Shown here piece by piece: positions 33,959 through 35,791 of a DNA stretch of 64,000 bases. The stretch spans positions 1-64,000 of the forward strand of contig CACNZU010000001.1 in assembly GCA_902624885.1 (NCBI GenBank). The letters run 5' to 3'. Within the stretch, counting starts at the first letter, position 1; every line of letters begins with the position of its first letter. A program made the translations under genes and the position numbers. The notes under the pieces were generated by a model. It worked only from the letters and a program-made list of their open reading frames with translations, was not told the origin of the DNA and did not search any database. This DNA is from an uncultured Pelagibacteraceae bacterium. GTDB lineage: Bacteria > Pseudomonadota > Alphaproteobacteria > Pelagibacterales > Pelagibacteraceae.

Positions 33959-33987
33959 TTGACAAGTTTGTGATGATTTAGTAAACA
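33959..33987 (+). promoter_or_regulatory. Promoter for the metX riboswitch transcript
   Basis: TTGACA (33959-33964) is a perfect -35 box; TAAACA (33982-33987) is 17 bases later. The predicted start, about 33994, is at the first bases of the SAM-II aptamer, which is what a riboswitch leader should show. Confidence 0.5.
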
Positions 33988-33990
33988 TAT

Positions 33991-34043
33991 CTCGCGCTGA
34001 TTTAACCATATTGCAGGCGCATAATAAATGTAGCTAAAAAGGG
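33991..34043 (+). ncRNA. SAM-II riboswitch aptamer upstream of metX
   Basis: The sequence carries the conserved SAM-II (metA motif) blocks in order: CGCGCTGATTTAACCATA at 33993-34010, TTGCAGGCGC at 34011-34020, then ATAATAAATGTAGCTAAAAA at 34021-34040 and GGGG. The P1 helix is GCGC (33994-33997) with GCGC (34017-34020); the 3' strand AGCTAAAAA forms the pseudoknot in the family. It binds S-adenosylmethionine and in alphaproteobacteria normally sits ahead of met genes. Here it sits directly ahead of metX. Confidence 0.93.
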
Positions 34044-34046
34044 GAT

Positions 34047-34072
34047 GCCCAGTTTAGCTGGGCTTTTTTTTT
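34047..34072 (+). terminator. Riboswitch-controlled intrinsic terminator before metX
   Basis: GCCCAG (34047-34052) pairs with CTGGGC (34058-34063) around a TTTAG loop, followed by nine T. It ends two bases before the metX ATG. The aptamer strand AGCTAAA (34032-34038) is an exact complement of TTTAGCT (34053-34059) in the terminator, so an antiterminator can form when SAM is not bound. Confidence 0.9.
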
Positions 34073-34074
34073 GG

Positions 34075-35214
34075 ATGAATGTAAAAATTGAGAATATTAA
34101 GAAATTAGATGTTTCTGAACCACTAAAACTAGATTGTGGTAAAAGCATTAGTAACTTTCCTCTCGCTTATGAGACTTATGGAAAACTTAACGACAATAAA
34201 GATAACGCAATACTTGTTTTTCATGCACTTACGGGTGATCAGTTCGTAACTGGAATAAATCCAATAACGAATAAAGAGGGATGGTGGACTACAGCAGTTG
34301 GTCCTAATAAAGCAATTGATACTAATAAATATTTTGTCATTTGTGCTAATGTAATTGGTGGATGTATGGGGTCTCTGGGTCCAAGAAATATTAATCCACA
34401 AACAAATAAACCCTACGGTTTAGATTTTCCAGTTATTACAATTAAAGATATAGTTAGAGCTCAAGAGTCTTTACTCGAACATCTTGGAGTAAAAAAACTT
34501 TTATGTGCTACAGGAGGTTCAATGGGAGGCATGCAACTATTACAGTTTTGCGCAACTTTTCCTGACAAAGCCTTCTCCGCTATTCCAATAGCATGTAGTT
34601 CGAGTCATAGTGCTCAGAATATTGCTCTAAACGAACTTGCACGACAAGCTATAATGTCTGACCCTGTGTGGGACAATGGAAAATATGTTTTTAAAAATGT
34701 ACAGCCAAAAAATGGTTTAGCAGTTGCAAGAATGGTTGGGCATATAAGTTATTTATCTGAAAAAGGTATGCAGGAAAAATTTGGAAGGAAACTCCAAGAA
34801 AAAGCAAATTACGAATTTAGTTTTAACGCAGATTTTCAGGTAGAGAGTTATTTAAGACACCAAGGTTATGCTTTTGTGGAAAGATTTGACGCAAATTCAA
34901 TTCTTTATATAACTAGAGCAATGGATTATTTTGATCTCTCTAAACAGTTCAATGGAGGCTTAGTAGAAGCTTTTAAAAATCAAAAAACAAAATTTTTAGT
35001 TATATCATTTTCTTCTGACTGGCTTTATACAACAAAAGAAAATAAGGACATAGTGATTGCATTAAATGCCTCAGGCGCTGATGTTTCTTACTCGGAAATA
35101 GTAACAGACAAAGGACATGATTCCTTCTTACTGGATGAACCAGAATTTTTAAAAACTCTAAAGGGCTTTATAGATTCAATGTATGAAAAGTTTAAAAATG
35201 AAAAAAGAATTTAA
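34075..35214 (+). CDS. metX: Homoserine O-acetyltransferase
   Basis: This alpha/beta-hydrolase-fold enzyme acylates homoserine for methionine synthesis. The 379 residues have the nucleophile elbow ATGGSMGGMQ near 148 with Ser, VIGGCMGSLGP near 100 and the C-terminal GHDSFLLDEP with the catalytic His. The ATG at 34075 is used: a longer frame from 34045 would translate the terminator hairpin itself. No Shine-Dalgarno can fit in the nine-T leader. MetW follows with a 17-base overlap. Expression should fall when SAM is high, through the SAM-II switch. Confidence 0.95.
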   Translation: MNVKIENIKKLDVSEPLKLDCGKSISNFPLAYETYGKLNDNKDNAILVFHALTGDQFVTGINPITNKEGWWTTAVGPNKAIDTNKYFVICANVIGGCMGSLGPRNINPQTNKPYGLDFPVITIKDIVRAQESLLEHLGVKKLLCATGGSMGGMQLLQFCATFPDKAFSAIPIACSSSHSAQNIALNELARQAIMSDPVWDNGKYVFKNVQPKNGLAVARMVGHISYLSEKGMQEKFGRKLQEKANYEFSFNADFQVESYLRHQGYAFVERFDANSILYITRAMDYFDLSKQFNGGLVEAFKNQKTKFLVISFSSDWLYTTKENKDIVIALNASGADVSYSEIVTDKGHDSFLLDEPEFLKTLKGFIDSMYEKFKNEKRI

Positions 35215-35791
35215 AGTAATTGCTGATTTATTGCCAAATCACACAAGAGTTTTAGATGTTGGTTGCGGAGATGGGTCTTTAATGAATTTTTTAAAAAAAG
35301 AAAAGAATATAAAAGTTCGTGGATTAGAACTAAATCAAGATAATGTTCAACAATGTATACACAAAGGTTTGCCTGTCATACAAGGGAATGCTGAAACTGA
35401 ACTTCATCAATTTCCTGATCAGTCTTTTGACTATGTTGTACTAAGTCAAACATTACAAGCTTTTTATAAGCCAGAAGAAGTTTTAAAAAATCTTTTGAGA
35501 ATAGGTAAGGCAGTAATTGTTTCTATTCCAAATTTTGGGTACTGGAAAGTTAGAATTAAACTTTTATTTTTTGGTGAAATGCCGGTTACAAAAACATTAC
35601 CTAATACTTGGTATAACACGCCTAACTTACATATGTGTACTATTAAAGATCTGTTTAATTTTTGTGATGAAAAAGATATAAACATAAAAAAAGTTGTAGG
35701 AGTTAATGAAAATAAAACTTCATTAATAAAAAAAAATAATTTAGAAATAAAAAATCTCTTTTCAAAGTTAGGAATTTTTTTAATAGGATAA
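35198..35791 (+). CDS. metW: MetW methyltransferase-like partner of MetX
   Basis: A 197-residue class I methyltransferase-fold protein with motif I VLDVGCGDGSL near 20-30 and the MetW block SQTLQAFYKPEEVL near 90. MetW is paired with MetX in many Proteobacteria and has been reported to support its activity. The ATG at 35198 is preferred to the one at 35183, giving a usual length. It is directly followed by gloB with no gap. Confidence 0.9.
   Translation: MKKEFKVIADLLPNHTRVLDVGCGDGSLMNFLKKEKNIKVRGLELNQDNVQQCIHKGLPVIQGNAETELHQFPDQSFDYVVLSQTLQAFYKPEEVLKNLLRIGKAVIVSIPNFGYWKVRIKLLFFGEMPVTKTLPNTWYNTPNLHMCTIKDLFNFCDEKDINIKKVVGVNENKTSLIKKNNLEIKNLFSKLGIFLIG

Follow-up and report, generated by a model that had tools for sequence, protein, structure and literature searches.

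Terminators 3' of SAM-II aptamers have been known since the description of the metA motif in 2005 (Corbino et al., PMC1273637), and SAM-II of Alpha- and Betaproteobacteria is most often arranged in this way (Barrick and Breaker 2007, PMC2258182), which is also the rule in tandems of SAM-II and SAM-V (PMC9481103). In Pelagibacter ubique, SAM-II followed by a terminator has been described at bhmT (Poiata et al. 2009, as cited in PMC9481103 and PMC5069961), and metX of Ca. P. ubique has been counted among the SAM-II targets acting on transcription (PMC5069961). In Sinorhizobium meliloti, both metA and metZ carry terminators 3' of the aptamer, the metA leader being laid out as SD-AUG1-terminator-AUG2 (PMC9373788).

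Here, we analysed the metX leader of the window, i.e., the whole stretch of 64,000 nucleotides, which comes from a marine bacterium of the SAR11 group. It shares with the alphaproteobacterial SAM-II terminator systems (PMC1273637, PMC2258182) the aptamer class, the pathway, a promoter before P1, the terminator between P2 and the gene and, presumably, the OFF logic. Among the class-level loci from other Alphaproteobacteria that were examined, most likewise use the 3' strand of P2 as antiterminator; there, however, it is a GGTCGG extension of P2 that pairs, and its partner is the 5' arm of the terminator, whereas the SAR11 form uses the ligand-binding core GCUAAA itself, paired with the loop and the 3' arm. 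The leader in the window is also unlike other alphaproteobacterial SAM-II leaders in that the gene starts two bases past the U-tract. Like the S. meliloti leaders, the window has its terminator 3' of the aptamer, but it holds an exact antiterminator, while a SAM-II-driven one could not be predicted by the authors for metA (PMC9373788). The bhmT leader of Pelagibacter ubique follows the same principle as the window, as its terminator loop CGCTTTAGC is complementary to GCTAAAGCG of the aptamer, but in the window there is one aptamer without SAM-V and the gene is metX. The switch in the window is a shifted form of a known design, and the combination of SAM-II and terminator as such is not new.

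Layout and identity of the metX leader

The features of the leader are collected in Table 1. From the -35 box to the metX start codon the region measures about 115 bp, the complete switch included, and the methionine genes metX-metW lie 3' of the aptamer, the typical context of a SAM-II target. Among 132 SAR11-family SAM-II loci, 131 have a TTGACA-like box 5' of the aptamer, 92 of them at a single fixed distance; judging from the promoter boxes, transcription in the window is predicted to start at or just 5' of P1. The intrinsic terminator GCCCAG-TTTAG-CTGGGC-T9 spans 34047-34072 and is followed by GG and the metX ATG. The letters and coordinates on which the earlier note had built its reading were correct throughout, namely AGCTAAA as the exact complement of TTTAGCT, the 6-bp stem GCCCAG/CTGGGC, the nine T and the ATG two bases further on, and the GGG:CCC pairing it had placed inside the same structure was confirmed by sequence and folding.

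Table 1. Features of the metX leader and the adjacent genes, in window coordinates.
Feature	Position	Strand	Basis
-35 box TTGACA	33959-33964	+	sequence; similar box recurs 5' of other SAM-II loci
Likely -10 box TAAACA	33982-33987	+	17-bp spacer; spacing and TANANN hexamers recur across loci
SAM-II (SAM_alpha, RF00521) aptamer	33992-34043	+	cmscan; comparison with model metX SAM-II RNA (PMC8494917)
P1 5' strand GCGCU	33994-33998	+	partner 34016-34020; RNA folding
Aptamer P2 3' strand AGCUAAA, also antiterminator 5' strand	34032-34038	+	sequence, folding, per-position conservation
GGG: P2 end in aptamer, partner of CCC 34048-34050 in antiterminator, supposed Shine-Dalgarno	34041-34043	+	folding
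In-frame ATG just 3' of AAAAAGGGG; probably not the metX start	34045-34047	+	ORF list; TAG or loss in relatives
Terminator hairpin GCCCAG-UUUAG-CUGGGC, 6 bp and possible seventh	34047-34063	+	sequence, folding, comparison across loci
UUUAGCU: terminator loop and start of 3' arm, antiterminator 3' strand	34053-34059	+	folding, comparison, conservation
Terminator U-tract, 9 U	34064-34072	+	sequence; at least T6 at 88/88 terminator loci, mostly T9
metX (homoserine O-acyltransferase), first of metX-metW pair	34075-35214	+	PRK00175.1, 509 bits
metW	35183-35791	+	TIGR02081; short overlap with metX

In cmscan, the aptamer aligned over its full length to RF00521 with 29.3 bits (E 4.9e-5; E 3.8e-5 in a search of its own genome). 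A search at the gathering score of 36 did not recover it, a permissive search did. The Rfam cut-off misses the SAM-II aptamers of SAR11, as none of 197 sampled SAR11-family genomes reached 36 bits though 143 have a match, and also loci with the exact model RNA described below remained under it with 34.1 bits. At all sampled SAR11 SAM-II loci, as at 33984-34058 of the window, SAM-II is thus of the Rfam-missed kind. Compared with the SAM-II wild-type RNA of PMC8494917, 48 of 52 bases are the same and four differ, and this 92% identity to a SAM-binding RNA suggests that the window copy binds SAM as well. P1 was present in every fold; the strands of P2 were placed by the family alignment, as nested folding is without the pseudoknot. 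Weak Rfam matches to sRNA_0030 (E 0.29) and asX2 (E 0.79) reflect the hairpin only and were dropped. The genome of the window, complete to about 70%, contains one SAM-V riboswitch over the cut-off (72 bits; L196, G000:C6:2027-2091) and yielded no second SAM-II.

Predicted competition between antiterminator and terminator

Energies were calculated by nearest-neighbour, pseudoknot-free folding, in which the SAM-bound P2 was represented by a blocking constraint on the aptamer 3' strand. The antiterminator, consisting of the 7 bp AGCUAAA:UUUAGCU, a 2x2 internal loop and GGG:CCC, reached -12.0 kcal/mol, exactly the value of the terminator hairpin alone; the earlier note had named an antiterminator much weaker than the terminator as evidence against its reading, and this was not what was found. 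With P1 included and the RNA 3' end at 34063, the antiterminator state was favoured at 37 °C by about 2 kcal/mol (-19.4 vs -17.4 kcal/mol). Blocking the aptamer strand left the terminator alone. The hairpin at 34032-34063 had a z of -2.33 against dinucleotide shuffles. The leader thus has an intrinsic terminator 5' of the gene, and an antiterminator of comparable stability with bases in both aptamer and terminator, as in a terminator-type expression platform.

When the RNA was folded stepwise at every 3' end from 34038 onward, GGG:CCC appeared at 34050 and the full antiterminator at 34057-34059, the latter being the minimum free energy structure from 34057 to 34071. The terminator took over only after the U-tract itself could pair, which is not possible for a U-tract inside the polymerase. 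Across 55 metX loci of this type, the antiterminator was computed to be weaker than the terminator in 19, by up to 4 kcal/mol, the most extreme of these coming from another genus, so that the switch at these loci would have to rely on timing.

Very likely, the leader is an OFF-type SAM-II riboswitch that controls metX by transcription attenuation; we infer the SAM-dependent termination from the sequence, energies, conservation and concerted change that were observed. Without SAM, AGCUAAA...GGG (34032-34043) would pair with CCC...UUUAGCU (34048-34059) as the latter leaves the polymerase, and the resulting antiterminator would occupy the loop of the terminator together with two bases of its 3' arm and part of its 5' arm, so that metX-metW would be transcribed. 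With SAM bound, the P2 pseudoknot would hold AGCUAAA...GG and bar the antiterminator, GCCCAG:CUGGGC would form before U9, and the transcript would end just 5' of the metX start codon. P2 and the terminator could coexist because P2 ends two to three bases before the terminator stem, and the antiterminator would exclude both. As a caution, in a SAM-II/SAM-V tandem the linker reportedly kept SAM-II from binding SAM in the full-length RNA (PMC11508383); by this precedent, the complete leader might bind SAM weakly at equilibrium, which would fit a kinetic switch.

Conservation of the alternative pairing in SAR11

The 132 SAM-II loci were collected by regular expression from 144 SAR11-family regions. 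A terminator was present at 88 of them, 55 of the metX type (GCCCAG/CTGGGC) and 33 of a bhmT-tandem type (CCACCG/CGGTGG), the latter label being given solely by the shared hairpin, SAM-V-like sequence 3' in most loci and the published tandem. Loop and 3' arm of either type contain a complement to the aptamer core, TTTAGCT in the metX type and the loop sequence given above in the bhmT type, and this complement is perfect over 6-8 nt in 55/55 metX loci and over 7-9 nt in 28/33 bhmT-type loci. As the metX set of one genus is nearly identical, these locus counts overstate independence, and the fairer measure is given by the 48 distinct sequences (22 metX, 26 bhmT) together with the comparison of the classes. 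All 22 distinct metX and at least 24 of the 26 distinct bhmT sequences retain the pairs opposite GCTA, and as a terminator loop itself needs no fixed sequence, this conservation is evidence for the pairing.

Beyond the core, each class extends the pairing in its own way. The bhmT aptamers have GCG after AAA and their terminators CGC before TTT (offsets 3-5, paired in 25-26 of 26), while in the metX type an A precedes GCTAAA with U opposite (offset -4, 20 of 22) and GG:CC follows further out (offsets 5-6). Swapping the terminators between the classes weakened the pairing in metX from -12.0 to -7.5 kcal/mol and in bhmT from -14.2 to -9.6 kcal/mol. The concerted change between the two classes argues that the alternative pairing has been selected and is not an accidental inheritance. 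Within the genus of the window the terminator is nearly invariant, and the covariation comes mainly from the comparison of gene classes and genera. Two bhmT-type loci (L128, L108) show a compensating pair change in the antiterminator just outside the core, CTGCT:AGCAG vs CAGCT:AGCTG.

Strong terminator-like hairpins, defined by at least four G-C pairs and at least T6, are rare in the genus, as only 11 occurred in 444 kb (380 kb of stretches and the window). Three of these are metX leaders of the SAM-II type, and TTAGC was found in these three only. Of 5000 random 5-nt loops placed on the same stem, 0.14% paired with the aptamer strand at least as strongly as the native loop. Chance complementarity was rejected on the basis of the random loops, the shuffles, the background terminators and the class swaps. 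Taken together, the energies, the conserved loop letters, the concerted change and the swaps support the competition between terminator and antiterminator that the earlier note had proposed. An exact-pattern scan for the switch in viral contigs gave no match.

Other SAM-II arrangements also occur in SAR11. At 35 loci, mostly of another genus (g4), the metX SAM-II has no terminator hairpin and the P2 3' strand runs directly into U5-U9 (e.g., L021, L022, L024, L029, L031, L036-L039 and L041-L043). A conserved CTCACAATTC after the U-run is complementary to TGAATTG(CGAG) of the aptamer, with a mean duplex energy of -11.0 kcal/mol compared with -3.8 kcal/mol when the tails were shuffled. These loci seem to use another kind of expression platform, in which the pseudoknot perhaps acts as terminator stem or the tail as an anti-aptamer element. 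At eight loci (L030, L055, L062, L063, L092, L127, L132, L134) SAM-II precedes a gene starting MKLES..., which in L030 resembles MetW; an SD-like GAGGT/AAGGT is present, and the hairpins there are weak, A+T-rich and have no loop complementary to the aptamer. One locus (L096, G078:C1:419804-420678) has a SAM-II-like aptamer that ends in GCTAAAGCGACATTCTC and stands before a different gene (MSNKLVDR...), with neither terminator nor U-tract.

Rival readings and the model metX RNA

A terminator that acts constitutively and does no more than lower metX expression, its complementarity to the aptamer being inherited or accidental, would agree with the near invariance of the hairpin within the genus and with S. 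meliloti metA, for which no response of the terminator to the riboswitch was predicted (PMC9373788). We regard this as very improbable, as the complementarity is kept in two different terminators, those of metX and bhmT, the class-specific extensions fit only their own aptamer flank, and random loops so rarely reach the observed energy. Direct occlusion, in which SAM would hide AAAAAGGG as a Shine-Dalgarno sequence and the hairpin would be secondary, has in its favour that the literature treats a near-identical RNA of 52 nt as a direct-occlusion riboswitch (PMC10907184) or as probably translational (PMC9373788), and that an in-frame ATG at 34045 follows just after GGGG. This ATG, though in frame, was rejected as the metX start; it is replaced by TAG in L018, L023, L046, L047, L112 and L123 and lost in L014, L059, L099, L103 and L116, and is therefore not needed. 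The conserved metX ATG lies 30 nt from GGGG with the strong terminator and its U9 in between, and the gap between U-tract and ATG is exactly two bases in 39 of the 55 metX loci, as in the window, and 6-14 in the others. In addition, GGG is paired in both folds, antiterminator and extended terminator, and would thus not be exposed in SAM-free mRNA either: in the predicted full-length mRNA, its unpaired probability is about 0.1-0.2, that of the metX AUG about 0.7-0.95. The use of Shine-Dalgarno sequences is rare in the genus, an SD-like motif occurring at 39 of 296 ORFs (17 after shuffling; first ATG per ORF), so that SD-less starts are usual and the earlier note had rightly seen no separate Shine-Dalgarno at metX. 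Occlusion as the main mechanism therefore appears improbable.

Rather unlikely, but overlapping with transcription attenuation, would be a dual control in which SAM mainly causes termination and in addition affects translation of the read-through mRNA. The order of SD, AUG1 (34045), terminator and in-frame AUG2 (34075) resembles that of S. meliloti metA, for which such a control has been suggested (PMC9373788); against it, AUG1 lacks in-frame conservation, and the G-run of the read-through mRNA is predicted to be paired.

Attenuation as the preferred reading also bears on the model RNA of the class, which reviews present as an SD-occlusion switch (PMC10907184; probably translational in PMC9373788). 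The published SAM-II wild-type oligonucleotide of 52 nt is UCGCGCUGAUUUAACCGUAUUGCAAGCGCGUGAUAAAUGUAGCUAAAAAGGG (PMC8494917). The exact 52-mer is present in two named SAR11 genomes, AG-914-J05 and AG-918-M15, where it is followed 3' by GATGCCCAGTTTAGCTGGGCTTTTTTTTTGGATG, i.e., the terminator and metX of the window. We take this oligonucleotide to be the crystallised Sargasso Sea metX RNA, 2QWY. The native context of the 52-mer favours control at the level of transcription over Shine-Dalgarno occlusion, and the most studied SAM-II RNA is thus likely to be a transcription-terminating riboswitch in its native SAR11 genomes, with its 3' strand serving as antiterminator and not as Shine-Dalgarno sequence. 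We found no publication that reads the native context of the model RNA as transcriptional, the closest being the listing of metX in PMC5069961.

The locus in the window alone would be routine, and its interest lies mainly in this reassignment: from the native context it seems that a truncated construct gave rise to the mechanism commonly shown for the model RNA. The complete switch is very short, and in it the ligand-binding bases themselves would form the antiterminator. SAR11, with few strong intrinsic terminators in the sequence sampled, appears to spend some of them on control by SAM.
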